Positions 5,242-31,700 of a stretch of DNA of 64,000 bases are shown here, in pieces. Source of the DNA: Diprion similis (Eukaryota; Arthropoda; Insecta; Hymenoptera; Diprionidae). Position numbers and translations under genes: made by a program. The notes below the pieces were generated by a model. It saw nothing but the letters and a program-made list of their open reading frames with translations, was not told the DNA's origin and did no database searches. Location of the stretch: contig NC_060114.1 of the NCBI RefSeq assembly GCF_021155765.1, forward strand, positions 17,900,501 to 17,964,500. The letters run 5' to 3'. Within the stretch, counting starts at the first letter, position 1. Every line of letters starts with the position of its first letter.

Positions 5242-7085
5242 TTAGTCATCTTCTGTGCGCTGGAAGTACCTGGCCTCGATTCGCTTGCACAAGTTGACCA
5301 AGGTCGGATAGCTCTTGACGATGTTAGCCAATGAGTTGTTAGGCAGTGGTGTTGTAAGGATCGTGAAGATGTGTCCAAAGGCCAGAGCATCGAGTTCATT
5401 TGGACTGCTATAATTTTGAGAGCTTGGCTTAAACGTTTTTGTAAGTAAAAATAAAAAAGAACCTAGAAAGACCTAACAGTGCGTGGAACTTTATTGCACG
5501 TACCTGCAGATAGCAGTTTAAAATAAAGCTTTAAAAATCTATCACATGTCTAAACAATATCGTTACATTGGAGAATTGGTGAGAATAAAAATTGCCTACT
5601 AAGATTTCAACCGATTACAAATTCTTTCAAATCTAGATGGCAGGTTTCTTCCAAGGAATCATTCTTCTCATTCACTTTCAACATGCCGAATGAATCTTCT
5701 GTAAGAGGAAAAAGGCACTCAAGGGATCCGGTAGAGTTGCAAAGTGAATCTTGGGATATGGTATCAGGCAGGTGCACTTGGCCAACAGAAATATCTGATT
5801 CCTTTTTGAAATAGAGAGTGTTCACTGAACGACAGTGTTCAATGAGCTGCTGGAATTTGCCTATTGTAGCAGACATTCCGCAGGCAGAAGGAAGGAAGGA
5901 TGTAGTGGTCAGGGCATGAATGTGGCCAAACACTAAAGCATCCAATTCAGTTGGCCTTAGAGAAAAAAGAATTGGAATTTAGGATTGAACTTTAATGTCA
6001 ATTATCTTGCATCTTTTTTGTACTCATTCCCCTGATTCCTTATCATTTTTTGCATCACGGTGAAGTATTAAAACTCTGTATCAGCTAATTGTATGAAAAA
6101 TAAGTAATATACTCACTCGTCACCAAAGAAGTAGGTTTTTCCTTCGAGTCTCTCGGCAAGTGCTGTGCAGCAGTTCTTGACCTCACCAAATACCTCGTCA
6201 AGACTTTTATTGTACCAGCCCAAGACATTGAGTTTCTTTGTAATCTGATTCTGCTTTTGCCAGTTAAGAAGGTGATTCAGAGGCCAAGGATATACGCTGC
6301 CGTGCCTGGGCTTAGTGACGGAATTCAAGGTGGCCTGATCTACCCAACAGACATACTGTTCAGCATTAACTAGCACATTATTAACGAGCGATATGTAAGC
6401 TCGCATATCAGCCTTATCAGTTGCCCCAAGCTCTCCGGAAAGACTGGAACCCTTGCTGCTGATGAAGGAGACGATCGGGTCGAACTCCGATACAAGGAAA
6501 GCCCCACATTGAATAAAAGGGACTCTTCCCGAGGGAGACATGTATTCCGCGTTGCTTCTCGGTTCAATTTGGAACTCCAGGCCACACATTTTCAGGTACG
6601 CCTGAACCGCCAGGCAGTTTGCATTGTCAGGGAGCAGGATTTGCTCAACCTCATATGGCTGATACAATTTTATCGGCTGCGGCCAAGGCTCTTGAGCTAA
6701 GAGTAAATAGTAGGAGAGCAAAATTTATGAATAATTTCTCGGGGATTTAAACAGGATTACATAAGGTTATGTTAGGTTAGGGTCAGGTCAATTTCTGCTA
6801 CTAAGGCTAGGTTAGGTTGCAACGGGCAACTGATATACTGAATTTTAGTAGGGTTTGAATAGGTTAAATTACATTTACGTCATGTTTTACAACAGTTAAG
6901 CTTCGTCGTGTTAAATACAGATTCTGTCATGATAAAGTTGCGACGTTGTTCTGAAAGATAACCTGAGTCAGGTTAGGTTAGGGTCGAGTCGGAGCACGCG
7001 TAAGATCTCAAGAGGTTACGATTAGTGTCTGAAAATTACCTCCTAACTCCATGGCTATCGTATCTGAGAGTAGAACATCTGGCAT
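5242..7085 (-). CDS. Mtx2: Metaxin-2, mitochondrial outer-membrane import/SAM-associated protein
   Basis: Coding exons on the minus strand: 7085-7040, 6696-6117 and 5404-5242, giving 262 residues, the usual metaxin-2 length. The start ([15 protein letters not shown]) precedes the family landmarks [49 protein letters not shown] and [19 protein letters not shown]. Metaxins have a thioredoxin/GST-like N-terminal half and a GST-C half and act with metaxin-1 and SAM50 in outer-membrane beta-barrel assembly; this is family knowledge. All three exons join in frame (phases 1 and 2) with GT-AG sites. The last exon given here is the canonical one; a second, diverged version of it lies in the preceding intron and is listed separately. 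The gene is divergent from RpL23, with about 870 bp between the start codons. Confidence 0.93.
5490..5495 (-). terminator. Polyadenylation signal AATAAA for the short metaxin-2 transcript
   Basis: AATAAA on the minus strand about 110 bp after the stop codon of the alternative last exon and before the canonical last exon. It fits a proximal poly(A) site that would exclude the distal exon. Confidence 0.55.
5607..5955 (-). CDS. Mtx2: Alternative terminal exon of metaxin-2 (diverged duplicate of the last exon)
   Basis: This exon has its own acceptor (CTAAG at 5960-5956) in the same phase as the canonical last exon at 5404. Using it gives [19 protein letters not shown] in place of [19 protein letters not shown], then continues for about 60 residues beyond the normal C-terminus to a TGA at 5609-5607, for a total of 324 residues. 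The two exons share P-x-ELDAL-x-FGHI, a Cys in the following helix and a YF near the end, so they are paralogous. An AATAAA (minus strand) lies at 5495-5490, between this stop and the canonical exon, so it can end a transcript. The tail is Ser/Asp/Glu-rich and matches nothing I recognise. Alternative terminal exon use is inferred from sequence only. Confidence 0.75.
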
Positions 7086-10879: not shown

Positions 10880-11180
10880 CCTCTGCGGTCAGTGTCTGCA
10901 GTCTTCCCTTCTCTTTGTCTTCTACTATCAACATTTTATTTCAATCTAATCAATCCCTTTCCTCTGCCCGGATGGATGACGTACCGCCAATGATGCATAG
11001 TTAAAGCTCGTTCGTTTTTGCTTTGTACAAACTGACATCTCGGCTTCAAGCTGAGACGCAATCTCACTTCCATGGTGGAGTCTCGCGAGTTGCGAAACCT
11101 TCTCAGTTTTTCAACGGTTTTCGTTCATATTTTGTTCGTTATCATCTGCATTCCAGACTCGATATTTTCCTTAGTGTATA
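10880..11180 (+). promoter_or_regulatory. Upstream block conserved between the integrin copies
   Basis: This block resembles the regions before the other two copies (about 20440-20732 and 21840-22147). Shared landmarks are TTTGATCTAATCAA-like and GACGTACCGCC/GCGTACCGACG-like motifs, a GAGACGCAATCTCA-like segment, and CAGACTTGATATTTTCC immediately before the start codon. It probably holds the promoter and 5' UTR duplicated with each gene unit. Confidence 0.55.
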
Positions 11181-14100
11181 ATGTTAGTTTCTCTGACTCT
11201 CATCCTCGCCCTATCGCCGCTCCTTGCTTTCTCCTACAACGTAGACACGAGTCACCCCATTGTCTACAAAGATCAGGAATCTGGGGGAAATGGATATTTC
11301 GGATACACCGTCACCCTCCGATCGGGCCAAAACTCTGCTGCCTCGGCAAGGTGAGTACATCCAATCGCTATCAGTGTGCCAGACCAGATGGACAAGAAAA
11401 AACCCGTCGCGATACGTGCGCGTTTGTGTTACCGTTTCCCCTTTCAATCGCAGCATCTTCATTGGTGCGCCCGAATACATGAAGGGCGAGGGTGCCTTGT
11501 ATCGGTGCTCGATAAATGACGACAAAACACCGAGCGGCACGTGCCGAAGATTGAACATCGACCAGGCCTCCGTTTCAGGAGAGATTCGTGTGCGGAATCT
11601 TCCTTCTCTGAAAATCGTACAAGTTGGGACCGTCGGGTGGCTTGGAGCAAGTCTTGCGACTCGAGATTACTCGGACTTGACGGTAATTATATGCAGCGGT
11701 GCGAACATGAGTGGCGCTGACTAATTACGTATAGTAACTGGCAGAACTTTCGAACGTCATCGAAGAGAGTGATTCACTTCGTTTTGATCGCCAATCTTCT
11801 TTCCAAGTATATATACGTAATAGGTATGAGCCGATCAGATTAACCTTTGAGAGATGAACCAGATTTTTACTGCGCCTGACAGGTACTGTGACCCAAAAAG
11901 GGACGGCGACCTTTGAACGAGAATTGTGATCCTCGTAATGATCGTAGAAGGTTGCTTTTTTTTTAAACAAAGTGCCAGATTTGTAGTTTTTCAAAGTCCT
12001 ACTTGTTTCTTGAATTATCTATTTTTTTAGTGGCAATACAAAGCTTCATAAAGGTTCAGAAGTGTACTTCTTGTCGCTTTTAATGATCGATCCGTACCTC
12101 TTATACCGTCACCGTAATCTTTAGGTCTGCGCTCCGCGTTCGTTATTCAAATACGTCGCAGATGACGGCGATGAAAGCTTTACACAAGGGTTAGTGGACG
12201 ATATGCGTGGAATCTGCTACACGCTGCCCGAAGCCATCGGCGACACCCTTTACCGCGATAACTCCGTGTTACCGCCTGATGGTGAGTGATACGAGTGCTG
12301 ATCACTGAAGTGATAAATACAAAATAACAGATGCAATTCTTGAATTGCATATTTGCAAAGTTATTGCGTTTCAGTTTTTTTCATTAATTGTCGTCATGTT
12401 AACGCAACATCGAACAAACTTGAAAGTTCATTTATCTGTATACTGTAATAGCGATTACCCTACTGAAAATTTTCATGTAATAAATGACATGCTGAATTCT
12501 TTTAAAACATTTGATGATGTAACACGTGATCATTTTCAGTAAGATTTCTCTGGTGTGACTTTTCAACAGTTGATACACGTATAGTTGTGATTGATTTTCA
12601 GAACACTTGTTACAAAGCATCAATCTCAATGCCCTTCACGGATTCTCCATCAACTATGCTGCGAAAAAGGTTTATGTTGTATTATACGCACATTTGTACT
12701 CTAGATAGGTATTATAAGTCCCTCGAGTTTTTTAATTGATGCACACGGGGAAAGTGATTACGAGACGGCTGATTTATTGGCCAGATCCGCGGTGTTGTTG
12801 GCGGAATCTGCATTGCTAACATAACTGACTCGGCGGAAAGATTAGCCGTCTTAGAATCACTTTCCCCGTGTGTACATAGGGACCTCGATATGTAATGAGG
12901 ATCGTCTTGATTACAGGTCTCGAACACAGTCGAGCTAATCATAGGAAGGCCAAGGTTGAACAAGGTAGAAATTCATCACGAAAATAAAACGGAGGTCAGA
13001 GTATATCCTGGTCTCGGTCCTGGCAATTTAGATCGTATATTAGCGAAAGCCGCAGAAGGTGCCAATCTTGGTAATTATAACCACGAATCTCGCAACCTTT
13101 TCATCACTTTTTATTCCGATGAAATTGAATCGAGAATTAATAACGTAATATTCCCAGGCTACTCGGTCACCTCGGGATACTTTTTCCGTCCTCAAGAGTT
13201 GGTCTTTGCCGCTGGAACGCCGGCGTGGAATTTTACGGGCCAAGTGCGTTTTGATTTACTAAAATTACATCATTCTAGTGAACGGAGAGTCGAAGTGAAA
13301 TAAATGTAATTCGCTGTCAGTATAATACAATACAATTTGATGCATGTCCGTCCCTTCGCTCAAAGGTCGTAGTTTACTTGCCGGGTACTGTGTGGGAAAC
13401 AAAAATCGACGGTTCCGTGCTTGGCGAGTACTTTGGCGCGAGTTTGGCGACGGGGGACTTTGACAACGACGGTCTGGACGACATTGCCGTAGGCGCACCG
13501 CACTGGGGTGAAGTAGACTACGGTCGAGTCTACACATTTTACGGGAACAATAAGGTAGGCATACAATTGACCCTCTTTCGATTTCATCTTCAGCATCGTC
13601 AATATCTTCTCCGACTTGGACTCCATTTTGCGTGGACACCTATCTTTCTATATCATTCACCTTACAATAGCGTCCTATCTGTAGTTAGTTTCGCAATCAG
13701 TATTTGCTATAAGCTTTCAGCACTTGTGCTTTGCTGCCTCGAATGTTCGTATCGTCAATCGAATAGTTTGTCAAATTTCATATTTTCTTGCGTACATCGC
13801 AGGGCGTTTTCAGGGAAGGTCTGATGCTCCAGGGTACATCAGAATACGGACAGTTCGGTTACACCTTGGCCGCCAGTGATCTGGACGGCGACGGTTACGC
13901 AGGTGAATATCTTGCGAATGCTGAAAGTTCCTGTTTTCTTCGAAGCAGGGACCCGCTAAACTATTCAGAAAATACGATTCAATTCACCATCCCCCGCAGA
14001 TTTGGTGGTGGGCGCTCCGTGGGAGGCGTCCGGTGCCGTCTACGTCTTTTACGGCCAGCGTGAGTTCGGCACCAAAGAAGGATGTACCCCGATAAAACAA

Positions 14101-17100
14101 CGAATCTCGCCCTCGGAGTTTAAGAGCTCTGTAACCATCCAGCGTTTTGGATTCTCGCTCGCGCTTCCTGTCGACGTCGATAACAATGGGTAAAGTTGTC
14201 AATTGCCTCACTTCGTATGAATTTTTAGAACAAAGCCGTGGATTGCACGTGCTGTCATATATTCGTTATCTTTCTCTGACCCAACGTTAATCGAATGCGC
14301 CCCCAGGTATCCCGATTTGGCAGTTGGTGCGTACAAATCTGGACACGCGATTCTATTGCGGAGTAAACCTGTCGTAAAGCTGACGCCTCGACTTGTCTCC
14401 TACTCACCTATATTGGACAGATCCGCTCGTAGTTTTGTCATCGGCGTCTGTGCCGAGTATCATGGAAAGGGAGCACCCGAATCTCAAGGTAATCGATGAC
14501 AATGATTCGCCGTTTGATAGTCACATGTTGTGTCATTATACGTCTGTTCAGTGCTCAGTATCGAGATCGCAGTGGATGAAGAATATACGCGCATTGAAAA
14601 CGACGAATCTATGAAGCTTTTTACAACCCCGTTCTCGCCAGATGAAATATCAACATGCGTCAACAGAACGCTTTATCTCGTGGTACGGTACAGAGAATAG
14701 ACTAATTAACTTATGTACGTGCGCATGAATGCCAATATTTGAAAAAATGTCATAGTACGGCTTCGTCGATTTTTGCACAGTGTTTTCCTGTGTTCAAAAA
14801 TTATCCTTCTTTCAGAGGGGATTTAAAAATTTTCTCGAACCAATCGTCATTCGTGGAAGGTTCAGCATCAGCAACAAAAGTAATATCGTTATGAATTTAT
14901 TACCTTAGACGATTCAAATTTATTCACATTTGCATGCATTCAATATTAATTACGAAGTGTGGGTCTAACTACAGGTAGACAGGGGGATAAATTCTGCTCA
15001 CATTGTCCTGTTCTGAATAAGGGCCATATGCTGGGGGAAGCAGAATTATTTGTACCTTTCAATACCGGATGTAAAGACGGCAAAGTGTGCAACTCAAATT
15101 TATCAATCAGCTGGATGGCTACAGGTGTCAGGTAAATGATTGCGTTTCAAATGTTTGTATTCTTGAATTTCCTTTCCCGTAGCCTCGTTCGTAAATTTGT
15201 CGGAATGCTTCGGAGCGTGAATAACAAATGGAATTACACATTATTGCAGCAACAATGATCAATGGGTTGTAGGATCGGGCGACGTAAATATTGATATCCG
15301 AGTAACGAATAACGGAGAGCCGGCGTTTCAAACGGAGATCATGATCAAAATGCCACCAGGAGTTCGCCTTCGAAAAGCGATACCGTCCTGCGTGGAGACT
15401 AAAGAGGGAAATTCCGTAGTTCTGGAATGCGACGTCGGCAACCCTCTCTTCAAAGGGGAACCGGTGAGTCGTGTTTACGAGTATCTCCTGACGATTTCCT
15501 TTGTCAATCAACAGTACCCACGAATACACTCGCATTCGTGTTATAGTACGTGATCGGAATCAACTTTAAACCATCAATGAACTGTTATGCAACACTCACG
15601 TGTCTGTAAATTGACTTGGAATGTTGCAGAAATCATTAGCCGTCGATCTTGATATGGGAGGAATCGCAAGCTCTGCCGGATCGACGATTTTGCGTTTCAC
15701 CGTTACTACGAAAACATGGAGCGTTGATCGCGGGGAGAAGAAAAGTGTTTTCTGTTTGCGACTCGAAAATAGAGCTCACATAACGCTGACAGGGTAAGAG
15801 AACACCGCGTGCCCTAGCGTGTGTCGCTATACAACATTAAATATCGAAATCTATGATGAGTTTTGCATCGGTATTCGATTACTAGAATTATTTAAAAAAA
15901 AGTCTCATTCGAATGCTCAATCGATTAATTTGTTGGCGCGTCTATTGCAGGGTGGCAAACGAACAAAACCACGAATACGGAAAGACAGGGAATAATACGA
16001 AGCTGTCTATTCGGCACACTTACCAACTTACCAAAAAGGGACCATCGTCACTACCGAAAGTACACTTTGCGGTCGACGTGCCCGTCGCCATTACCGACAA
16101 AAACGTTTCCATTGTTCACATTTATCTTCCAGAGGTAAATTTCATAGTTTATAAGATAGGTTGTGTCACTGAAAATTTTTGTCAATTGAATGCAGAAACC
16201 AGGTGAACTGAGCATTAAACTAGCGAATGATTAATCACCGTTTCTGAGAAATTGGGCGTACACCGTAAACAGTAACGAATGTCCAGCTTTAAATATTTTC
16301 TGCGTTGTTCAAACAGCTGGATAGTTCTGGAAACATGCACGAGTGCTCGATCGTCGACACTGTAGAATATAGGAAATCCATTCTGCCAAAATTGCTCAAT
16401 CCTCTGCAGCCGATGAAGAGCCGCGGAATTCCTGAGCTGAACTCTGAGGAAAAGAAGGAAGAGCAAGAAGTCGATGCAACAGATGAAGAAATATACTCCG
16501 GGGAGAAGAAAAATGAAATGTTCCAGGAGAGAAAGACGAGCATTGACGGTCAAGGCACCGATCGAACGATTTATGTGAATTGTTCAACGGCGGGCATAAC
16601 GTGCCGCACAGTAATGTGTGATTTTAACATATCAAAAACGTCTGGAGACGTAGGAAATTCGATCCTGGATATGATCTTTGACGTACAGCCATTGTTCACA
16701 CGTACGATATTGCTAAAGCATATTGAAAGATATTAATTTTTCTGCGACTGAATTTCCCTTCTGTATTATTAACTATTTTCAAATTTTCACGTTTTTCAGC
16801 CGACGAAAAATCTTTCACCGTAAACTTTAGCACCGACGCGCGAGCACTGATCATTGAGCCGATATTATTGGACACGATGAATGGTTCGCGGTGAGTTGTC
16901 CGGCGTTTGTGTTCATATATTATTCAATGTCTTTTATATAACGCGAGTATGTTTCACGCGGTTTTTCTTAGGTGTTTTCGGTACACAAAGTACCCGTTTC
17001 TACGCCGGTCGAGTGAGTCTGCGCATTGCGCATGCGCGGAGTACTGAAACGACCGCTTTTGACTCCTAGGAGTCAAAGTTGGTCATTTCTGTACGGCTCT

Positions 17101-18231
17101 CAGGCGCTGACGCGACAAACACAGCGAACTGATCTCACATTTTGCGACCCTAACCTCAATTTGGTGCTGCGCGAAAAACCGCGTAACATACTCTTGTTAT
17201 ATAAAGTATCGTGTATAACATGGAGGCAACGGTCTTTGCCTCCTTGTTATACAATGTACTATTCCACTCGTTTAAGCTCAAATTATCTATTGTTTTTTCT
17301 CACATACAACAGCTTCGTAACGGCTAAAGCATCGACGATGCTCTACAACGTGCCGGAGGCTCAAGAATTGTCAGGTTGGGTTTTACCAGTTTCGATCGGC
17401 TTTGGTCTTCTGCTACTGGTATTTCTGATCATCATTTTATTGAAAGTAAGTAGTTCAGGATATCGTGAAGCCAGTTGTAGTCATGCGTGGAACTCTTCAT
17501 AATATATTTAAAGGTAATTGAGTGGTGAATGTTTAGAGATTAAAAATAAGGCTTTATTCAACGCGTATCCAACATGGAGATTCGGCAGGCAGAGAACTTT
17601 GGGCCCACCGGGTTAGCAAACTTGAATCTAGGGATATTAACTAGGGAGTTACTAGGAACTAGAATATACTGCATTCTTCGTCATCATTCACGATCAGATA
17701 TTTTGCAGGACGAAGCAATTCGAATTTGTTGTTTATTTTGCTCTCGTTATTCGAATGAGCAAGACTTAGTAGGAAAGCGGATTGCGGCAGAAAATCGATC
17801 CACGAGCCGTCAGATCCGCGTATAATTTTTGGGCGTAATTTGCATTTAAAAATCTCGAAATTTCGTACTCTGATGCAGACTAGATTTTCTTGTTCTTCAT
17901 ATTTCGTTTGTAAAAGAGTGACTTCTCTCGTGTTCTGTGCGTAACGGAAATCGAATCACGTCTGTTTCCGTCTTCGTGTTAGTTGGAGTAATCAATCAAA
18001 TTCAAGAAAAATCAAAATTAATATTCCAGGTTGGTTTCTTCAACAGACCAAACAAGACGCGAACTGCGAAGACAAAAGAGATGGTAAGCGACTTACATTT
18101 TGCCACAACTACCATCTCCGATTTTACTCATCTTCGTTATATTTTTCACCCAATTTACTTTACCGTTAAAATTACAGAGATTGAAGTTGAACGGGGACGA
18201 CGGTTATAGTGAACTTGATCTGTACGGTTAA
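11181..18231 (+). CDS. Integrin alpha chain, insect alphaPS3-like, tandem copy 1
   Basis: Exons: 11181-11350, 11454-11682, 12125-12281, 12602-12669, 12917-13070, 13158-13243, 13366-13554, 13803-13902, 14000-14189, 14307-14488, 14552-14682, 14816-14879, 14975-15131, 15250-15463, 15630-15793, 15951-16134, 16317-16701, 16800-16890, 17313-17445, 18030-18083, 18178-18231. All 21 join in frame to give 1051 residues. A signal peptide (about 1-18) is followed by seven FG-GAP propeller repeats with three calcium loops, DFDNDGLDD, DLDGDGYAD and DVDNNGYPD; the last two are split by introns. Then come Cys-containing thigh/calf regions, a charged linker (exon 17), one membrane helix (about 994-1015), and the membrane-proximal GFFNR variant of the integrin GFFKR motif. 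No I-domain is present. It would pair with a beta subunit at the plasma membrane for adhesion. The closest family by layout is the alphaPS3/scab group; this assignment was not tested by a tree. Confidence 0.92.
12742..12872. mobile_element. Short palindromic MITE in intron 4 of integrin copy 1
   Basis: The ends CACACGGGGAAAGTGATT and AATCACTTTCCCCGTGTG are inverted, and the match continues to AGACGGCT/AGCCGTCT. The paralogous intron in copy 2 (23282-23393) reads straight through as TGGTGCATAGGAACC at this place, so it is an empty site. The insertion of about 131 bp therefore happened after the duplication or was lost from copy 2. Confidence 0.8.
13143..14490. repeat. Nearly identical block shared with 23826-25173 (copy 1 side)
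   Basis: Exons 6 to 10 and the introns between them differ from the second copy by only about a dozen bases by eye, although exons 1-5 and the introns before the block differ strongly. The left edge falls inside intron 5, just before TATTCCCAGGCTACTCGG. To the right, similarity declines gradually through exons 11-16. Confidence 0.85.
16932..17262. mobile_element. MITE insertion in intron 18 of integrin copy 1
   Basis: Intron 18 is 422 bp here and only 95 bp in copy 2, and the flanks align on both sides. The insert starts TTATATAACGCGAGTATGTT and contains an inverted match to it at about 17168-17205, a central palindrome TTTGACTCCTAGGAGTCAAA (about 17057-17076), and a terminal hairpin built from GGAGGCAA and TTGCCTCC. 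A second copy in inverse orientation lies at about 47150-47495. Confidence 0.8.
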
Positions 18232-18625
18232 GCGACTACAACGTACGGAGATTCTCAGGTAAAATGAAGAACCGTATAATGCACGACCGTTGTGGGCTGC
18301 AAAGGTAAAAAGGCTCTGTACTTGCCATTTCACACTGCAGACTGGAATTTGCAACTTGTGATTTAAATAATTAAGTTCATATATATCTACAATATTTGTT
18401 CACCAGTTCATCACGCACACGTCTACATCCCTGAACTGAGGCTTCGTTAGGTATCACATATTCGTATATACATACACACATATATATGTATATGTATATA
18501 TATACAGTGGGCATAATACAATACTTTTAGAAAATTTCGTAGTAGTATAGTAAAAAAGAATCTGATGTAAAATTTGTATATTATTATCATTACTGTAATT
18601 TTTGTTTCTCTTATGTCTTATGTCT

Positions 18626-18634
18626 TGATTAAAT
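18626..18634 (+). terminator. Possible polyadenylation signal (ATTAAA) of integrin copy 1
   Basis: ATTAAA lies about 400 bp after the stop codon of copy 1. The equivalent place after copy 2 carries AATAAA near 28752, which supports this position. Confidence 0.4.
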
Positions 18635-18815
18635 AACAACTTATGTTTTACAGAAAAGAAATATTTCTCTGCAATCATAATTATTCTATTTGACTGTTTT
18701 GCATCGTTTCCTGATTACAAGGAGGAAAGAGGGTAGAAAAGAGGCTATTATCGTCGTCATAGTCATCATACGTCATTTTTTATCCCAATTCGTGTGGCGC
18801 GTCCGAGCATAAGTT

Positions 18816-19745
18816 TTGTATTTCCACAGGCACGTCCATGCGGGTCACTTTAAAGGATATCAAATTTCAACGAAACAACGATATCGGTTCCGGTGTAAAT
18901 CGATGTTATACGTCTGGAGCGTGACATTTCCAAGAAGAAATTATTGCTGTATTCTACCCTTTCTTTCTGTCGCACTCTGTCTCTCTTTGGTTGGTCTCTT
19001 TGGTACAAACAACCTACTAGATCCGTCTCCATCTGGGTACAAGGAAGGCCTTAGCACTCAACACTCTTGCTTTCTTTTTACGATGATGTTAGACGTGAAA
19101 TTGGCGAACAGCGCTTTGATACACGGCTGTTAGGCGATATTTGTTAACTTCATTTGTTAAAATCGCAAACCACTTTGGAAAGCAGTCACTTTGAAATCGA
19201 TTGAAATCACTTGAATTTAATGTCTTGGCAATATTTCATTTGTGTATATGTAATATACCTAAACCCTGATCGGATGAAGCAGTGATCAAACCCAATCTAT
19301 TATCGTGACTGTACCTAATTCTTAAGACTGTGTTCCTCGTACGTCATTCGGATATACTGCAAATGACAGCTTCTATCTAAGGATATCTAAGCGGTTGGCA
19401 GATTATATGCGTGGAATTTTCTACAACCTGCCTGAAGCCCCGGCGACATCCTTTGCCATAAAAACTCCGTGCTTTTCCTCGCGGTCAGTGATCCGACTGT
19501 AGTGATTAGTCATCTGTAAACCAAATGGCAAATGCAACTGTTGACTCACATGTTTTATTGTTATAACGTTTATCAAGTTTTTTCCCTGCGGTTACATCAC
19601 CGCAGCGGTTTCGGATACATTTAAGCTTCCGTGCATGTCCTTAAATAAATTATTATCGCTGGCATAATTTCTCCGGAGTTACAGTGTGATAAATTATCAG
19701 ATCACTGGTTTCGAGGCGTCCATACTTTGCATGGAATCCCTGTAC
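18816..19745 (+). pseudogene. Relic A of a dead integrin alpha copy
   Basis: The segment GGCACGTCCATGCGGGTCACTTTA (about 18830-18853) matches GGCACGTCTACATGGGTAATTTTA upstream of copy 2. Then 19327-19480 matches exon 3 of the live genes (TATGCGTGGAATTTTCTACAACCTGCC) but has in-frame stops and indels. The stretch 19590-19745 matches intron 3 and exon 4 of copy 2, ending in a decayed counterpart of LHGFSI. Exons 1 and 2 are not found between these pieces. Confidence 0.75.
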
Positions 19746-19864
19746 CCCAGATTAAAATCGCAGGTGTTGAAGTCGCAAACTACTTTGAAAAGCAGTCGCT
19801 TTAAAATCCTTAAAAATAACTTCAAATCAGTTAAAATCAGTTGAAATCAGTTGAGATCATTTGC

Positions 19865-20185
19865 AATAATTGTAGGGTAGACTGCAAGCTGTTGTGGGTG
19901 AATACGGTCGTTGTTCCGACTAGCATGGCCGTCCACGTTAACAGGAGTGTACCAAGACTCTGTACTAGGTAGACTATTGTTCTCCTTGTTTCTTGATGAT
20001 ATTGTTGGTAATTTGATGTATTCTCGACACATGATTTTCCTGATGACACCCACATTTTTTTAAGTTGTCTATCCTCCAACAATAAGTTTAATAATGGCTT
20101 AATCACTCATGATGTCTCGGTCATCGGGCGATATACCCACCGCAATGGTCTCCAACTTAATGTTAATAAATCCAAGGTGCTAATT
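19865..20185 (+). pseudogene. Non-LTR retrotransposon reverse-transcriptase fragment (degraded)
   Basis: Read with frameshifts, the plus strand gives GVYQDSVLGRLLFSLFLDDI, matching the conserved GVPQGSVLGPLLFSLFINDI-type motif of Jockey-like reverse transcriptases. It is followed by a decayed catalytic FxDD box (F-P-D-D) and RNGLQLNVNKSKVLIQ, the motif that follows the palm. At least one frameshift and several in-frame stops are present, so it is inactive. It lies between two integrin relics, so it may mark an insertion into the dead array. The rest of the element was not found. Confidence 0.8.
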
Positions 20186-20439
20186 CAAGTTCATTTTTCA
20201 CTCTATAAATTGAAATTTCACAGAAATTTTTCTTTCACGAGAATTTAGAACTACTCTCGCTGTCTCGTCATTTTCTCACTTTTCGCCTCTCGGTGCTCAC
20301 AATGATAATAGTATCACCTGATATTTTTCTGTCAGTAACTGTAATTGGTCTGAATATGGTTTATTTCGTCTTAAGTAATCTAACTATACACCAAAATGTT
20401 ATTTCATAACAAATGATTACCTGTATTTATTTCAACTAT

Positions 20440-20902
20440 TGCTGTATGTCTCTCTCCCTCTCTCTCTCTCTCCTTATGTTTCTCATTGCGAGAATGTTCC
20501 TCAAATTTGAATCAATTTTTTTTGCCTTCCAAACAAATGATATACCGACGTTAGGGTATGGTTAATATGTGTGCCCCATCCCCATTTATCAATTGCCCTT
20601 TCCCTGTCCAGTCAGTTGCTGAGACGTGATGATATCGAGACTTTGCGTTTTCGCAACCTCCTTTCTTAGTCCTCCGACGGCCTTTGTTCGCTGTCAACTA
20701 CATTGCAGACTTGATATTTCCCGTGGAGCACAATAATCGTGTCTCTGATTCTCTTCCTTACCCTATCGCCGCTCCTTGCTTTCTCCTACAACGTGGACAC
20801 GAGTTACCCCATTGTCTTCGAGGATCAAGAATCTGGAGGAAATGGATATTTCGGATACACCGTCACCCTCCGATCGGGCCAAAACTCTGCTGCTTCAGCC
20901 AG
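20440..20902 (+). pseudogene. Relic B: promoter block and exon 1 of a dead integrin alpha copy
   Basis: Positions 20733-20902 match exon 1 of both live genes over the full 170 bases, including the donor AG|GTGAGTAC. Reading is open, giving SLILFLTLSPLLAFSYNVDT, but the start codon is ATA where both live genes have ATG. The upstream block also matches the live genes. Downstream of the donor there is no exon 2; the sequence passes within about 110 bp into a copy of the 3' flank. Confidence 0.85.
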
Positions 20903-21009
20903 GTGAGTACATCCAATCGCCAATTCCAATTGAAATCATAGACATTGATGCTGAGGGAGGACGACGCGTACCCCGAATTTGAACATCGGAAAGAAACTAA
21001 TACGACGCA

Positions 21010-21450
21010 CTCATCGTCAGATCCTCAGGTAAAATGAAGAACCGTGAACTGCACGACGGTTGTGTGCTGCAAAGGTAAAGGCTCTGTATTTGCCATTTCA
21101 CACTGCAGACTGAAATTCGCAACTTGTGATTTAAATAATTAAGTTCATACATGGCTACAATTTTTTTTCACAAGACCATCACACATGGGTCTACATTCCT
21201 AAACTAAGGCTTCGTTACTTTTCCACATGCATAAAAATCTGGAAATAATATAGTAGGTTTCGGGAAATTTTATGATTTCGTAATTATACTAATTAATGTA
21301 GTAAAAAGTAATCTGATGTGAAAATCGTGTATTGTCATTATTGTTATCATCATTCCTTTTGTATCTCCTGTCTCGATTAAATAATAACTTATATTCTAAA
21401 AAAAAACCATACGTCTCTCAAATTACAATAATTCAATGTTTATTGTTTTT
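21010..21450 (+). repeat. Duplicate of the integrin 3' UTR
   Basis: From TCAGGTAAAATGAAGAACCG onward this stretch matches 18255-18700, after the stop codon of copy 1, including CATTTCACACTGCAGACTG and GTGATTTAAATAATTAAGTTC. With relic B it shows a third gene unit that has lost everything from intron 1 to the last exon. Confidence 0.8.
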
Positions 21451-21839
21451 TTTCGTGCCTTGGGACCGTTCCGAAATCACGTAAGCACGGTCTATGAAGG
21501 GGAAGAACTAGCATTATTTTCGTTTCATTTATTGGTCAACACAGCGCGCTAGTGATCAAATCTTACATGATGAGAACGAGCCATCTGGAATTTCATTTGG
21601 TGCATCCAAAAATAAGCAACTACGTGTTCCTGCAGGCACGTCTACATGGGTAATTTTATAAATTATCAAATTTTGGAAAAACCCCTTAATGTTTCATCTA
21701 CGAGCAGCCTTTCAAAGTATAATGTTACTCCGGATTTAGTACGTAGAAAGAATTGACTTGGGAAACAACAAGATAAATCGATGGCTGCTTAAATTGTTGC
21801 TATATTTCTGTAGTGTGACCACACAACAGGAAATTAGTT

Positions 21840-22147
21840 GACGGATATTCTATTTCCTCTGTCTATCTCTCTCTCTATCTCTGTTTCTCTCATCACCACC
21901 GTTTTATTTTGATCTAATCAAATCGTCGCCGCTGTCCAAATGGACTGCGTACCGACGATGACGTATGATTAATATCTATACCCCTTCCTATCCATCAACT
22001 GTCCTTCCATCGACATGTCAGTTGATGAAACGCAATCTCATTGTCATCGCAGTTTCTGGCGAGTTGCGTATTCTTCTATATTAGTTTGTCAACGTCCTTT
22101 GTTCGTTGTTAACTGCGTTCCAGACTTAATATTTTCCGTGGTGTACA
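21840..22147 (+). promoter_or_regulatory. Upstream block of integrin copy 2
   Basis: This matches the blocks before copy 1 and relic B. It contains a CT-rich microsatellite at about 21865-21885 and TTTGATCTAATCAAA, and ends in CAGACTTAATATTTTCCGTGG directly before the start codon. Confidence 0.5.
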
Positions 22148-25100
22148 ATGTTCGTATCTCTGATTCTCTTCCTTACCCTATCGCCACTCCTTGTTTTCTC
22201 CTACAACGTAGACACGAGTCACCCCATCGTCTACGAACATCCGGAATCTGGAGGAAATGAATATTTCGGATACACCGTCGCTCTCCGATCGAACCAACAT
22301 CCTGCTGCCTCGGCCAGGTAAAAATGCCACGTTACGGTACATGCAATCACTATCAGTGTGCCGGATGGCATCGGTGGATAAATCCCTTAGCGATCCGTGT
22401 ACGTTTGACTTTATTACCGATTTCTCTTTTAACAGCAGCATCTTCATTGGTGCCCCGAAGTACGGGGAAGGTGAGGGTGCCTTGTACCGGTGCACCGTAA
22501 ATGAGAACGAAACACCCAGCAACTCCTGTCGAATACTGGAGGTCGACAAAGCCTCCACTTTGAAAAAAATCACGTTACAGTATGTTAAATCGGTAAAAAT
22601 CGAACGTACCGGGACCATCGGATGGCTTGGAGCCAGTCTCGCGACTCAAGAGTTCTCCGATCTTACGGTAATTAAATGCAGTGATGATGTGACTAAAACT
22701 ACTAATTGCAGTTACTGGCCGAAATTTCAAGATTCACCGGAGAAAATACACTTTCTTTGCGAATATTGTTTTTGTGTATACTTAATAGGCTCGCAGATCG
22801 GATGTCTCGGATCGGAATCAATATCATCGTCGTTGTAATTTTTAGGTTTGCGCTCCACTTACCTTATTCAAATATGATGGAACTGGCGACAGCTATGAAA
22901 AGGAAACAAAGACGTTGGCGTACGATATGCATGGGATTTGCTACAACCTGCCTGGAGCCATCAACGATACCCTTTACCGTGACAACTCCATTACGTTTCC
23001 TTTAAGTGAGTAATATGACTGCCGTGATTAGTCAGATAAACCCAATAACAGCTGCAATTGTTGCGTTACATGTTTCTACTGTTGTTACGCTTATAAAGAT
23101 TCTTCCGTTGCGGTTACATTATTGCGGTATCAGACATACTCGAACATTCGCATATGCCTATGTATATGTCATTATCGCTGGTATGATTATCCCGCAGTTA
23201 TATTGTGATAAATTTTCAGGTTACTTGTTGCGAGACGACCCTACTCTGCACGGATTCTCCATCCACTATGCAGCAAAAAAGGTTCATGTTATGTTATACG
23301 TATATAATTATACTCGGGTTAGATATACGTCCCTCGAGTTTTTAAATTGGTGCATAGGAACCCAGATGTGTAACATGATCCTCCTGATTGCAGGACCCGA
23401 AGACGGTTGAGCTGATTATCGGAAAACCTACCGTGAATGAGGTGGAAATTCATCACAAAAATAAGACGGAGACTAGAGGCTATCGTCTCAAGGATAATAC
23501 TGATCATGTAGTACAAAATGTCATGGCAGGTGCCAACCTTGGTAATCATAGCCACGGATCTCGTAAAGTTTTCATTATATTTTATTCCCATGGAATTAAA
23601 TCAATCACTAACCCTCCATGTGTAGACCGGGTCTTTAAAAACAGTCTAAATTTCAAACATATTTTCCTCTTTCAAATTCACTTGTTATTGACAACGGTTT
23701 TGAACTTTTGACTTTGGCAACTTCTGGGCCATATAGGAGACAGTTCGAGAAATAATCCTTTTTTCAAGATTTTTTGAAACCCTAAAACACTTTCTCTCGA
23801 AAAATATAGTGTGCATACAGAAGGTTAATAATATTCCCAGGCTACTCGGTCACCTCGGGATACTTTTTCCGTCCTCAAGAGTTGGTCTTTGCCGCTGGAA
23901 CGCCGGCGTGGAATCTAACGGGCCAAGTGCGTTTTGATTTACTAAAATTACATCATTCTAGTGAACGGAGAGTCGAAGTGAAATAAATGTAATTCGTTGT
24001 CAGTATAATACAATACAATTTGATGCATGTCCGTCCCTTCGCTCAAAGGTCGTAGTTTACTTGCCGGGTACTGTGTGGGAAACAAAAATCGACGGTTCCG
24101 TGCTTGGCGAGTACTTTGGCGCGAGTTTGGCGACGGGGGACTTTGACAACGACGGTCTGGACGACATTGCCGTAGGCGCACCGCACTGGGGTGAAGTAGA
24201 CTACGGTCGAGTCTACACATTTTACGGGAACAATAAGGTAGGCATACAATTGACCCTCTTTCGATTTCATATTCAGCATCGTCAATATCTTCTCCGACTT
24301 GGACTCCATTTTGCGTGGACACCTACCTTTCCGTATCATTCACCTTACAATAGCGTCCTATCTGTAGTTATTTTCGCAATCAGTATTTGCTATAAGCTTT
24401 CAGCACTTGTGCTTTGCTGCCTCGAATGTTCGTATCGTCAATCGAATAGTTTGTCAAATTTCATATTTTCTTGCGTACATCGCAGGGCGTTTTCAGGGAA
24501 GGTCTGATGCTCCAGGGTACATCAGAATACGGACAGTTCGGTTACACCTTGGCCGCCAGTGATCTGGACGGCGACGGTTACGCAGGTGAATATCTTGCGA
24601 ATGCTGAAAGTTCCTTTTTTCTTCGAAGCAGGGACCCGCTAAACTATTCAGAAAATACGATTCAATTCACCATCCCCCACAGATTTGGTGGTGGGCGCTC
24701 CGTGGGAGGCGTCCGGTGCCGTCTACGTCTTTTACGGCCAGCGTGAGTTCGGCACCAAAGAAGGATGTACCCCGATAAAACAACGAATCTCGCCCTCGGA
24801 GTTTAAGAGCTCTGTAACCATCCAGCGTTTTGGATTCTCGCTCGCGCTTCCTGTCGACGTCGATAACAATGGGTAAAGTTTTCAATTGCCTCACCTTGTA
24901 TGAATTTTTACAACAAAGCCGTGGATTGCACGTGCTGTCATATATTCGTTATCTTTCTCTGACCCAACGTTAATCGAATTCGCCCCCAGATATCCCGATT
25001 TGGCAGTTGGTGCGTACAAATCTGGACACGCGATTCTATTGCGGAGTAAACCTGTCGTAAAGCTGACGCCTCGACTTGTCTCCTACTCACCTATATTGGA

Positions 25101-28100
25101 CAGATCCGCTCGTAGTTTTGTCATCGGCGTCTGTGCCGAGTATCATGGAAAGGGAGCACCCGAATCTCTAGGTAATCGATGACAATGATTCGCCGTTTGA
25201 TGTTCACATATCGTGTCACATTATACGTCTGTCCAGTGCTCAGTGTCGAGATCGCAGTGGATGAAGAATATACGCGCATTGAAAATGACGAATCTATGAA
25301 GTCTTTTACAACCCCGTTCTCGCCAAATGAAATATCAACATGCGTCAACAAAACGCTTTATCTCGTGGTACGGTATAGAGAATAGACTAATTACCTTATG
25401 TACATGCGCCTGAATGCCAATATTTGAAAAAATGTCATAGTACGGTTTCGCCGATTTTTGCACATTGTTTGAGTGTGTTTAAAAATTATCCTTTTTTCAG
25501 AGGGAATTTGGAAATTTTTTCGAACCAATCGTCATTCGTGGAAGGTTCAGCGTCAGCAAAGAAAGTAATATCGCTATGGATTTATTGCCTCAGACGATTC
25601 AAATTTATTCACATTTGCATGCATTCAATATTACGAAGTTTGGGTCTAACTTCAGGTGAACAATTATTAATTACGAAGTGTGGGTGTAATTACAGGCAGA
25701 CAAGGGGATAAATTCTGCTCACATTGCCCCGTTCTGAACAAGGGCCATTTGCTGGAGGAAGCGGAATTATTTGTACCTTTCAATAGCGGATGTAAAGATG
25801 GCAAAGTGTGCAACTCAAATTTATCAATCAGCTGGATAGCTACAGGTGTCAGGTGAATGATTGCGTTTTAAATGTCTGAATTCCTGAATTTCCTACCCGA
25901 TTGCTTCACGTAAGAATTAATTTGTCAAAATGCTTCGGAGCGTGGATAACAAATGGAATTATAAATTATTGCAGCAACGATGATCAATGGGTTATAGGAT
26001 CGGGAGACGTAAATATTGATATCCGAGTATCGAACAACGGAGAGTCGGCGTTTCGAACGCAGATCACGATCGAAATGCCACCAGGAGTCCGTCTTCGAAA
26101 AGCGATACCGTCCTGCGTGGAGACTAAAGAGGGAAATTCCGTAGTTCTGAAATGCAACATCAGCAACCCTCTCTTCAAAGGGGAATCAGTAAGTCAAGTT
26201 AATAAACTATGCACGTTGAACGTATCACCTTTTCTTTGTCAATCAACAGTACGAATACACTCGCAATCGTGTTATAGTATGTAATTCGGACTGAATGTGA
26301 CTTGGAATGTTGCAGAAATTATTAGCCGTCGACCTCGACATGGGGGAAATCGCAAACTCGGCCGGAGGGACGACTTTGTGTTTTAACGCTACCACGAAAA
26401 CATGGAGCGTTGATCACGGGGAGAAGAAAAGTGTTTTCTGTTTGCGACTCGAAAATAGAGCTCACATAACGCTGACAGGGTAAGAGAACACCACGTGCCT
26501 CAGCGTGTGTCGCTATACGACATGAATTATCATAATGTATGATAAGTTTTGCATCCGTATTCGAATTCTAGAATTATTCAAAAAAAAGTCCCATGTGAAT
26601 GCTCGATCAACTAATTCGTTGGCGCGTCTATTGCAGGGTGGAAAACGAAGAAAACTACGAATACGGAAAGACAGGGAATAATACGAAGCTGTCTATTCGG
26701 CACACTTACCAACTTACCAAAAAGGGACCATCGTCACTGGTGAAAGTACACTTTGCGGTCGACGTGCCTGTCGCCATTACCGAAAAAAACGTGTCCATTG
26801 TTCACATTTACCCTCCAGAGGTAAATTTTGTAATTTATAAGATAGGTTGTGTCACTGAAAATTTTTGTCAATTGACTGCAGAAACCAGGTGAACTGCGTA
26901 TTAAAGTAACGAATGATTAATCACTGTTTTTGAAAAATCGAGCGTAAACCGTAAACAGTAACAGATGTCCAGTTTCAAATATTTTCTGCGCTGTTCAAAC
27001 AGCTGGATAGTTCTGGAAACATGCACAAGTGCTCGATCGTCGACACTGAAAAATACAGGGATACAATTTTGCCGCAAATGAAGAGTCGCGGAACTCCTGA
27101 GCAGAACGTTGAGAAAAAGGAGGAAGAGCAGGAAGTTGGTGCGAAAAATAAGAAAAAACACTCGTGGGAGGAGAAAAATATCACGCGTCAGGAGGAAAAG
27201 ACGAGCATTGACGGTCAAGGCACCGATCGAACAATTTATGTCAATTGTTCAACGGTGGGCATAAGATGTCGCACAGTAACGTGTGATGTTAACATATCAA
27301 AAACGTCTGAATACGTAGAATATTTCAATCTGGATATGATATTTGACCTACAGCCGTTACTTACATGTAAGATATTGCCATACAATATTGAAAGATATTT
27401 GTTTTTCTGCGACTGGATTTCCTTTCTCCATCAATATTACTTTTAGATTCTTACATTTTTCAGCCGACGGGAATTCTATTATCGTAAACTTTGGCACCGA
27501 AGCGCGAGCAGACAGAGACACGATGAATGGTTCGCGGTGAGTTGTCCGGCTTTTGTGTGCATCTATTATTCAATGCCTTGTTTACCAGTTCAATCTCAAA
27601 TTGCCCATTGTTTTTTCTTGCAACACAACAGCTTCGTAGAGGCTAAATCATCCACGATGCTCTACAAGTCGCCGGAGACTCAGAAATTGGCAGGCTCGAT
27701 TTTGCCAGTTTCGCTATGCCTTGGTCTTTTATCGTTGGTCATTCTGGTCGTCGTGTTATGGAAAGTAAGTGGTTTAGGGTATAGCGTGGCCAGTTGTAGT
27801 CATTCGAAAAAAATTTTCATCGTCACTCATGACCTGATACTTGAGATGAAGAAATTAAAACTTCTGGTTTCGTTAGCTCTGATTATTTAAATAAGCTAAC
27901 TCAAAGACGTGAAGCTGATGATGATTGGCATAGATTCGTACCCATTTTACGAATATGATTTGAAGTTCTCCAACTCTCAAACCCAAATCGTACTCTGAAT
28001 AGTTTCCTTTTTTGCAATTTTCCTTGTAAAGAAATTTTCATCACCAGTATCTGCATTTGATTGAATTCGTATCAAATACGCCTCACATAAAATAATTAAC

Positions 28101-28424
28101 TAATATCAACTGCAATAAAAAATATTTCAGGTTGGTTTCTTCAAAAGACCAGCAAAGGCGATGATCAGGAGTCCACAAAAGATGGTAAGCGACTATATTT
28201 TTCCTCAGAACGACTTTCTTTGACTTTTCTCCTCATCGTACGCTTCATCTTTCTCTTTTAATAGTCTGTGCATCAATTTTAACCGCGGCAATGTATTTTA
28301 CCTGAATATTTCACACATTTGGTTGTCATTAATAATGCATTATTCATTATTTATCTGATTGAAATTATAGGTATTGAACCTGAAGGCAGACGACAAATAC
28401 AGCGAACTTGATCTTCACAAATAA
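22148..28424 (+). CDS. Integrin alpha chain, insect alphaPS3-like, tandem copy 2
   Basis: Exons: 22148-22317, 22439-22667, 22846-23005, 23220-23281, 23394-23541, 23841-23926, 24049-24237, 24486-24585, 24683-24872, 24990-25171, 25237-25367, 25501-25564, 25696-25852, 25975-26188, 26316-26479, 26637-26820, 27003-27366, 27464-27536, 27632-27764, 28131-28184, 28371-28424. All 21 close in frame to give 1035 residues. Layout and intron phases equal those of copy 1: signal peptide, seven-repeat propeller, three DxDxDG calcium loops, thigh/calf region, charged linker, one membrane helix, then the canonical GFFKR. Exons 2, 3 and 5 (outer propeller blades) differ strongly from copy 1, while exons 6-10 are almost identical. 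Exon 2 has a tandem acceptor (AACAGCAG, 22431-22438) that could add one Ser. Both paralogues look functional. Confidence 0.92.
23606..23823. other. Insertion in intron 5 of integrin copy 2
   Basis: Intron 5 is 299 bp here and 87 bp in copy 1. The extra part lies between GGAATTAAATCAATCA and the start of the nearly identical block. No inverted ends were recognised, so its nature is unknown. Confidence 0.55.
23826..25173. repeat. Nearly identical block shared with 13143-14490 (copy 2 side)
   Basis: The offset to copy 1 is a constant 10683 bases from exon 6 to exon 10, so there are no net indels in about 1.35 kb of exon and intron. Outside the block the offset changes. Confidence 0.85.
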
Positions 28425-28751
28425 TCGAATAAAATCTGTCGAGATATCTATGTAAAGACGAGTACTATAAAAATAATAGTTACGCACTCGCCGTTTTAGA
28501 ATGCGAAGTGAATGCCATTAGCTATAATTGTAACAACTAACAATAAGTTGATACGTGTTTCGTACACTTTTCCGCCGATCCATCATAAACGCCAACTACA
28601 TCTTTAAACTGAGACGTCATCAGTTTTTACATAGATATTCTATATAAATATGGAGTCCTAGGGAAATTAAGTAGGAGAATAATAAGAAAAAATTTTACTA
28701 TCATCATTTTTATTATTTTCATTCATTTTTTTCCTCATGTCTTAATGAAAT

Positions 28752-28757
28752 AATAAA
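28752..28757 (+). terminator. Polyadenylation signal AATAAA of integrin copy 2
   Basis: AATAAA lies about 330 bases after the stop codon, in the stretch equivalent to the ATTAAA after copy 1. Confidence 0.5.
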
Positions 28758-31700
28758 TATATTACAGAAAAACAATATTTCCGTATATGTACTAATATTC
28801 TATGTATTTTACTATTTTTTTTCTTTACTTTCATGTTAGGTAGATAAGAGATTCATGAAAATATATGTTATGCGATTAAAGTGGGCGTGAAAATTTTCCA
28901 ACTAATAAATATTATGTCCGTAAACTTGTCGATCGAAAAGGCATAGAATACCTAGAAAAAAAAACAAAAAAAAAAAAATAATACGGAGCTTTTCGTATCT
29001 CATATGTCCTGGATTTCGAGAAGTCCATTGTGACAGTTGAAAAATAAAAGAAACTTGATGAAAAAATTGCAAAAATAACCCCCTTCTACATGAGCATATT
29101 ATTATTTTTTGAGAACTTCGTTACTTTACATACAACAGTATTATGTAACGTGACATGTACAGGATATCGAAAATCAATCTTTACACACGTGGATAATAAT
29201 ATTTGTATACACATCATTAGATAAACACTAAATATATAAAACAGTGTGCGTTCAAAGTACGCGCAAAAATTAAACATACATCTCATTGAAATTATATTAA
29301 TTTTTCAATACACGAGATATGTTGAATAATTGGGCGTATAACAAGTATTCATTACGCATCCAGCAATGTGTCGAGAATATAATTATTGCAAATGATTATT
29401 TAACGAATAATGACTTAAAAATAACTAAAAATACATACAAGTGATAAAGAAAAATGGTCATTTTCTTCTCGTCGTTAATAATAATAATCCCGTTTTAATT
29501 TTCTTACTAGTATTTTACGTATTATTGCAGACTTACGAAATATTGAAACGATTTTGGGTAAATTTTTCCCGCACCTTGCCAAAGAATAAAAGGTTACGGA
29601 TAGAAGGCATTGATGACATTATTCCGAATATGAAAAAATGTACACTTGTTTCCTGTGTTTCAAAATCGAAATATGGTGTACATAATAAGCATGAAATACC
29701 TAATTTTATTAAAAATCTCAACTACTTTGTAATTCAATGTTGATATGGGTTTTGACGTTATTGATTTCCTCATCGATTACACTGATTTGCAATAACAAAC
29801 AATAAATCATACAGAAAACCATTACCTTTAAAAAAAAGAAAAACGCCATATAATTTGTTCCTGCTTTTAATTATCGAGGCAGGTGATGCGAAACTCAGTA
29901 GGTAAGCACTACTCTTGTAGTATGGTTTTTTTTAGCAACTTTTTTTTTAAATTTAAGTATGTAGGCACAAGTGTCGTTTTCTTCTTCTGGTTCTTTAAGT
30001 AAATTTTTTTAATTTATTCATTTTTGTAATTAGAGTTTCTCTTCACCTGTCACTGGAGATTTTGAGGCATCGTTATCGTTAATTTGAGGAAATGCTTTCC
30101 TCTTCCTTGGTAGTGTAACAGTCTTGAAGTACGAGACGCTACAGATGTGATGTTCATATGGTTTTCAAGTCCTTGTGAGTTCAGAATTGAAATTTCGAAA
30201 CTCTGAACAGGGTCTCTGCACATTATCGATGAATTGCCTGACTGCCTTCAAGTCTCATTGTCAGCTTCAGTCAGTCAAACGAAGATGTGCCAAGCATATC
30301 CTGGTGGTTTCCCGTCTCCAGAGACGGAAAGAGAGTTGAAGTTTTTATCTTTGAGTTGACTGTTAATTTTATCCAATGTAATTTTCACTGCCACTGATTT
30401 TTATTGGTTTTATTGTTACATCATCTCTGTGCTTTCTTTGATTCGAAGTATATTGTTTTAGAAAAAAAAAAAATAAATTAACAAAAAGAAATGATGAAGT
30501 AATTTTTGTTTTTTCCGATGAATTTTCGATATTTTCATACAGTTTTTTTTTTTTTTTTTTTTTTTTTTTTCACCCATCATCAGGAAGTTATAGAGAAAAG
30601 AAATTATCTCAGTTATTCGCTACGCTTGACTGTTGTCATGAATTCTTTTTTCCTTCCCAATCATCGTCAAATTTTTCTGTCTGTACAAGGAAATGTATAG
30701 ATATTTCATGCTTACCATACATCATAATCCAACTGTACACGCATTATCGCTTTAATCTAATTCCATGATTATTCTACCTATGAATTTCCATTAATCTTTG
30801 TCTTGCTTAATTTCAGACATTCAATCATTTCTGGCGTCTCTTTTTCACGGATTTAAGGTACCATTGAGTTCCCCATGCAGGATAAGTGAATACTTACATA
30901 TTTTATGAATAGTATATTTTGTATATATTTTATATTTTAAATCCGTGAAAGCAGATACTTATAATTGAACAGAATTAGTGTGAAATTCATTTATATTTAC
31001 CCAATTAGTCGGCGAATTTGTTACCACTGAAGTGTGCTGATACTTTGCCATTATTTCTCCAAGAGACCAGAAAAACTATAGTCACACTAGTTAAAAACCC
31101 TAGTGGGATATAGTAGAGAACAAACCATCAACACAAGAAAAATTGTAGCTTCTATCTTACTCCATTGTGTCTTTGATTCGTATTCCATAGAAGCCTACAG
31201 TTTTTCAAGGTTTTTTAACCAAAGTATAATCTACACACATTTGCCATAGAATTTTTTTTTAATATAGTAGATTTTGACGAAATTCTATTTTAAATTTATA
31301 ACGTACACAAAGTGACACAAAAGATTTGCAACTATTCAAATGTTGTTCATTCGATGAATTTCAGATGACTTGAAGAAAAAAAGCTTCGGTATTTTTCAGG
31401 TGTCAATATTTTCGAGAGAAAAGACACGTATGGCTAACAAAATTTACGTGGTATTGAGGTAAAGATCTGCATGTTACACAGCTAATCTGAATTTCTTGAA
31501 ATTTCGGTAAACTGAACAGAATTTTTGCTCTTTTACTTCTTTGCTTATATATCTATATGTGTGTGTTGTGTATGCGTACATATGCATACTATGCAGACAC
31601 ACACACACACACGCACACACGCACGCACACACGCAACATATACATTTCCCTTATAATTCGTGATATATACAATGTAGCTATTCAATAGCAATTTCGCGAA

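Follow-up and report, generated by a model that had tools for sequence, protein, structure and literature searches.

Interlocus gene conversion and concerted evolution, as set out in the available portions of two accounts (PMC3924837; PMC3924818), leave duplicated gene pairs with low silent and intronic divergence over part of their length. The available text on the copepod Tigriopus californicus describes the paralogues GOT1p1 and GOT1p2 as a mosaic of high and low divergence, compared across several populations and ascribed to gene conversion (PMC3728101), and another known pair, with a divergence peak in exon 5, is homogenised by conversion in one part while another part differs. Among insect integrin alpha genes, the parts of two papers available to us describe repeated duplication for Drosophila alphaPS3, alphaPS4 and alphaPS5, with alphaPS4 directly behind alphaPS3, and mention 'partial or chimaeric forms' (PMC9348853; PMC9218073); in Drosophila, two leader sequences are present in most ItgaPS3 genes (PMC9348853, in the part available). 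Conversion is not mentioned in those parts of the two papers, though no search for the word was made in them. A narrow literature search, only partly aimed at gene conversion, found no published case of it among integrin alpha paralogues. Here we describe two tandem integrin alpha genes, A and B, of the hymenopteran Diprion similis, which lie in a window of 64,000 nucleotides (GCF_021155765.1, NC_060114.1, positions 17,900,501 to 17,964,500, forward strand; coordinates below are window positions) and whose pattern of divergence was probably produced by repeated gene conversion between them. The process is a known one, the gene pair is new and the case is well marked.

A and B resemble the duplicated pairs of those general accounts, as far as the latter are available, in having low silent and intronic divergence over part of their length, with large indels, as well as an insert, close to or at the ends of that region; they depart from typical interlocus conversion in that their young tract exceeds most estimated mean lengths and in that they come from one species (PMC3924837; PMC3924818). 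The mosaic is shared with GOT1p1 and GOT1p2, whereas the gene differs (PMC3728101, in the part available). In the pair with the exon 5 peak, the flanking introns show low divergence, whereas in A and B the diverged exons are accompanied by diverged introns. Like alphaPS3, alphaPS4 and alphaPS5, A and B are insect integrin alpha duplicates, a likeness at the level of description (PMC9348853; PMC9218073, both in part). A scan of viral contigs found no relative. The gene models are as follows.

11181 to 18231, plus strand: gene A, predicted integrin alpha gene of 21 exons and 1046 amino acids, with GT/AG borders and a single open frame
22148 to 28424, plus strand: gene B, predicted integrin alpha gene of 21 exons and 1030 amino acids, with exon lengths modulo 3 that match those of A

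The A model was assembled manually, using the open frames and the splice sites, its exons being predictions, and the B model was transferred from it via the A–B alignment and then checked; in these models the two genes are co-oriented and complete-looking, each with a single open frame and with matching exon phases. Each protein has three stretches of the Pfam FG-GAP family (PF01839; E 3.5e-24 in A, 2.2e-24 in B) and, above the cut-offs, the leg Ig-like domains PF20805 (Integrin_A_Ig_2) and PF20806 (Integrin_A_Ig_3); the thigh domain, the first Ig-like one, gave no Pfam match at E 0.001 in either, and Rfam returned nothing at the gathering thresholds. By reading, the membrane span is followed by a motif of the GFFxR type, which we take to be an integrin alpha feature (GFFNR in A, GFFKR in B); in A, span and motif align with alphaIIb, as a stretch that is weak alone (i-E about 2.5). 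The comparison with the PDB, made with protein A, matched integrin alphas (63 distinct sequences; best alphaIIb, E 1e-39), and the best 60 of the 63 matches carry vertebrate-type alpha names, with alphaIIb and alpha4 on top. An apparent stop within exon 14 of A and an apparently lost acceptor at exon 13 of B both vanished once the borders of exons 12–14 were made phase-consistent, and neither gene is therefore called broken.

Along the pair, divergence changes steeply. Synonymous and non-synonymous divergence (dS and dN) were estimated by the Nei-Gojobori method and intron divergence by the Kimura two-parameter (K2P) model; the neutral set comprised 2386 intron and 403 four-fold sites, leaving aside the 6 intron bases after and the 15 before each exon, and codons whose first two bases differ. 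dS and dN are 0.619 and 0.264 in exons 1–5, fall to 0.011 and 0.004 in exons 6–10, and then climb through 0.150 and 0.043 (exons 11–13) and 0.205 and 0.117 (exons 14–18) to 0.476 and 0.313 (exons 19–21). The introns follow the same course under K2P: introns 1–4 and 18–20 differ by 32–61%, introns 6–9 by 0.8–4.4%, introns 10–12 by 8–10% and introns 13–17 by 11–30%, with intron 5 (21%) spanning the tract edge. The pair divides as follows.

11181 to 13145, plus strand: diverged 5' part of A, exons 1–5 and their introns (presumed blades 1–3; dS 0.62; 224 of 666 neutral sites differ)
13146 to 14518, plus strand: youngest homogenised tract in A, from the end of intron 5 through exons 6–10 to the start of intron 10 (17 of 1373 sites differ, no gaps)
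23829 to 25201, plus strand: the youngest homogenised tract in B, at an offset of 10683, from alignment and change points
14519 to 16935, plus strand: probably older zone of reduced divergence in A, exons 11–18, leg domains (3' end uncertain, 16.4–17.5 kb by segmentation)
25202 to 27579, plus strand: the corresponding zone in B, from BLAST and alignment
17313 to 18231, plus strand: diverged 3' part of A, exons 19–21, with membrane span and cytoplasmic tail (dS 0.476)

Upstream, over 11052–13145, A and B are 71% alike (57–90% in those 100-column windows with enough sites, the peak lying in exon 1), and, in the base-by-base alignment, identity leaps at 13146 to 98.8% and holds through 14518. Only 12 of the 659 neutral sites in the tract differ (1.8%; 11/524 in introns and 1/135 four-fold), against 34–38% outside the homogenised region (Fisher p = 2e-60 for the 5' flank; 180 of 474 sites differ in the 3' flank, 16936–18231). 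The best 1300-site window holds 16 mismatches; shuffling brought no such window below 179 (2000 rounds over single sites) or below 86 (2000 rounds over 50-site blocks). A block of low silent and noncoding divergence thus stands between stretches of high divergence, the pattern by which interlocus gene conversion is recognised. A sequence-only reading of the window had placed the near-identity of exons 6–10 at 13143–14490 with a constant offset of 10683; its position and offset were correct, although its interval has 20 differences in 1348 sites and its initial three bases fall outside the tract as placed by change points. It had also described exons 2, 3 and 5 as strongly diverged, which agrees with their dS of 0.80, 0.74 and 0.98 and dN of about 0.3 (dS is 0.21 in exon 1 and 0.72 in exon 4), and had proposed a sharp drop in synonymous and intronic divergence inside the block as its test of conversion; such a drop was seen. 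In base composition, GC in the introns of A and B is 0.384 and 0.367 (introns 1–5), 0.404 and 0.397 (6–9), 0.358 and 0.351 (10–17) and 0.401 and 0.335 (18–20), and third-position GC in exons 6–10 is 0.578 in A and 0.574 in B, against 0.49–0.56 elsewhere; the excess in the tract, as GC-biased conversion might give, is slight.

Calcium loops are generally conserved among integrins, and selection on the protein alone might be thought to keep exons 6–10 alike. This explanation was rejected, and its probability is close to nil, because intron and four-fold sites in the tract match almost as closely as the protein does, which speaks against it short of a strong function in the introns; the earlier reading had argued likewise from the introns. 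Its further statement that introns are as similar as exons holds nearly but not fully: 4 of 747 exonic sites differ, versus 13 of 626 noncoding sites (Fisher p = 0.013). Fewer coding than noncoding differences suggests that both copies have been constrained since conversion; the same imbalance could arise from heterozygosity misplaced by the assembler. An assembly artefact, in which reads of exons 6–10 of one gene, or of the other haplotype, were put into both genes, would fit a 1.2% difference that could be heterozygosity, as well as coding sites that differ less than noncoding ones, as between alleles. We regard it as highly improbable: a plain collapse would make the copies identical, and the block grades into an intermediate zone instead of passing directly into the background.

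This intermediate zone makes the tract of exons 6–10 the youngest portion of a wider low-divergence region, which reaches to about 16.9 kb; BLAST merges 13146–16933 into a single 89% match. The homogenisation had been thought to be limited to the calcium-binding blades, but the reduced divergence also covers exons 11–18, with the Pfam leg domains. Neutral differences number 24/265 in 14519–15131, 49/223 in 15132–15629 (34/201 without a doubtful 22-site stretch, 15471–15492), 46/347 in 15630–16316 and 27/155 in 16317–16935, the piece borders from 15131 on being our choice along exons and introns. The first piece differs from the tract (p = 1.6e-6), and the last three pooled, with 15471–15492 dropped, differ from the 3' flank (107/703 versus 180/474, p = 1e-18). 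The zone, at 9–22%, is probably older than the tract, and the step from 1.8% to 9–22% calls for at least two ages. Since both flanks are diverged, an exchange with two ends is needed: one crossover cannot yield an alike middle between unlike ends, whereas conversion or two exchanges can.

The same gradient bears on a chimeric duplication, in which a single unequal crossover in intron 5 would have made a gene that is hybrid from exon 6 on, with conversion either absent or limited to one later event in exons 6–10. The sharp 5' edge does adjoin an insertion/deletion in intron 5, and the array has lost or rearranged copies, relics of which remain, so that crossovers or deletions did occur here. 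Such an origin predicts a similarity that stays even through the rest of the gene and past it, whereas neutral divergence climbs from 1.8% to 9–22% and then 38%, and at least one further event would be required; we consider it unlikely. Of the two processes named earlier, recent gene conversion or unequal exchange, the former agrees with the data, and the latter alone does not, since it predicts an equal likeness throughout the downstream part, contrary to what is seen.

The tract begins abruptly at its 5' edge. A and B are identical over its initial 86 bases; with all sites, the change point falls at 13146 however many segments, from 3 to 9, are fitted, and with neutral sites it stays between 13142 and 13159 for any number from 3 to 8. 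By the Bayesian information criterion, six segments are favoured at neutral sites (2475.1, against 2477.1 for four and 2477.6 for eight; four to eight lie within about six units), and for all sites eight segments score 5279.7 and six 5282.2. Two large heterologies lie at or near the ends of the region, the second resembling a miniature inverted-repeat transposable element (MITE).

23603 to 23828, plus strand: about 215–226 bases in intron 5 of B, with no counterpart in A, abutting the 5' edge of the young tract
16933 to 17205, plus strand: MITE-like insert in intron 18 of A, with inverted ends (16933–16967 versus 17173–17205) that are 88.6% alike over 35 columns

Intron 5 of A is just 73% alike to the beginning of intron 5 of B. 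The stretch of intron 18 specific to A is about 320 bases long, extends to about 17251 and is mostly the MITE-like element, which was not found in intron 18 of B; a second, inverted copy of 16936–17242 lies at 47187–47488 (76.8%). Introns 2–5 and 18–20 have at least 92 gap columns each, introns 6–17 at most 59, and intron 1 has 20. Conversion is described, in the part of the source available, as ending where transposable element insertions or large indels disrupt pairing (PMC3924837). The two heterologies may likewise set the limits of conversion at this locus; the 3' one fits loosely, and the MITE-like insert, near the 3' end of the zone, is a candidate for that role.

On the conversion reading, A and B would be old tandem duplicates, between which repeated conversion, one way or both, would have copied DNA over a span from intron 5 to roughly intron 18. 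About 1.37 kb (exons 6–10) would have been overwritten most recently, by a single event or a cluster, and older events would have left the 9–22% zone downstream. Pairing, and hence conversion, would stop at large insertions or excessive divergence, while the exons for blades 1–3, the membrane span and the tail diverged independently. Several points weigh against this account. There is no other copy of exons 6–18, so that conversion is inferred from a single pair in one assembled sequence. Identity outside the block is mostly 63–80%, and conversion is said, in the available part of PMC3924818, to occur mainly above 80% identity. A length of 1.37 kb is long for one tract, because most estimated mean lengths range from 50 to several hundred bases (PMC3924818, same part). 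The all-site 3' change point falls at 16.4 or 17.3–17.5 kb, and the neutral one, in models with at least four segments, at 17485, past the MITE and not at it. Without 15471–15492, the grading within the zone is weak (p = 0.036; first piece versus the rest, p = 0.011). In addition, conversion removes indels inside a tract, so that indels lying outside are no proof of having stopped it, and cause and effect at the edges are inseparable for this reason. If conversion did act in this way, exons 6–10 date the last conversion and exons 2–5 the duplication, and whole-protein trees of such genes would mislead. The locus offers a compact case in which to ask whether insertions, or selection on ligand-binding blades, bound conversion.

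The limits of the tract can be set against the protein. Exon 5 of A ends with residue 259, which aligns with alphaIIb residue 235 (chain 8t2u), and exon 6 begins within codon 260; residues 255–481 align with alpha4 214–443 of 3v4p, and the start of the mature protein, in exons 1–2, with alpha4 1–75 (E 0.0046). On the blade numbering that we assume, exons 1–5 encode blades 1–3 and exons 6–10 blades 4–7 and the start of the thigh. Exons 7, 8 and 9 contain three canonical DxDxDG motifs, presumably calcium loops, the one in exon 9 extending into exon 10, and no canonical calcium loop was found in the blade 4 stretch of exon 6. All seven blades of the integrin propeller make one ring, and the earlier contrast of a shared 'core' with different 'outer blades' is therefore wrong. 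Ligand contacts of vertebrate integrins fall mainly in the first blades, and a role of blades 1–3 in ligand specificity would fit this; a search for literature on propeller blades and specificity gave nothing, and the earlier functional reading does not follow from the data.

Selection may nevertheless be asked to explain the unlike ends. Under ongoing conversion, alleles with converted exons 1–5 or 19–21 would be removed if the receptors needed different ligands or tails, as has been proposed for the human red and green opsin genes (PMC3924837, in the part available). The diverged parts do correspond to blades 1–3 and the tail, and dN/dS is 1.51 in exon 20 (tail) and 1.26 in exon 18; these values, and 1.51 in exon 11, rest on few changes and do not suit a simple picture. 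Pooled dN/dS is 0.43 in exons 1–5, with no sign of positive selection there, and 0.66 in exons 19–21 (range over the parts 0.28 to 0.66), and introns 2–4 are strongly diverged and gap-rich, as though conversion were absent there rather than pruned around selected sites. We find this explanation very improbable.

Between A and B lie relics of further copies, from which it follows that the array formerly held more copies.

19316 to 19738, plus strand: psiC1, a remnant made up of sequence from exon 3, intron 3 and the beginning of exon 4 (69% to B overall; 70% to A over 19405–19584)
20733 to 20902, plus strand: psiC2, a copy of exon 1 that has lost its ATG (87.4% to A over 20683–20920)
21019 to 21449, plus strand: 3' flank of psiC2, 116 bases past its exon 1 (73.8% to the 3' flank of A, 18249–18700)

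The frame of psiC1, by its translation, is shifted inside exon 3. Exons 2–21 are missing between exon 1 of psiC2 and its 3' flank, which also partly matches the 3' flank of B (28704–28823, 69.9%). In exon 1 of psiC2 the frame is open, the donor is intact and correctly phased, and dN/dS against A is about 0.24; this exon may be a remnant or may act as an alternative leader. A broader proposal takes conversion as a lasting device bounded by fixed insertions, which would keep blades 4–7 and the legs common while blades 1–3 and the tails specialise, with the exon at 20733–20902 still serving as alternative leader of B; as a joint claim it seems quite improbable. Around exon 1 (11131–11380), A, B and psiC2 are 82–87% alike, above their surroundings. 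Pairwise dS among the three copies of exon 1 is 0.19–0.26, below that between A and B in exons 2–5 (A–B exon 1 versus exons 2–5, p = 0.0003), which may reflect another small conversion tract or a slower rate of change.

Elsewhere in the window, a metaxin-like open frame lies at 6113–6724 on the minus strand (Pfam domains Tom37 and GST_N_4), and exons of a nuclear RNA export factor were found by Pfam at both ends of 32205–34572, also on the minus strand (TAP_C and NXF_NTF2 at 32205–32729; Tap-RNA_bind at 34267–34572). On the plus strand, a PAS-domain exon (PAS_11) occupies 52262–52717, near glutamine-rich codon repeats at 53.2 kb, and 63232–63552 holds a FAT-domain exon (Pfam), as in PIK-related kinases, whose gene may also include open frames at 57.3 and 59.1 kb that have no Pfam match.

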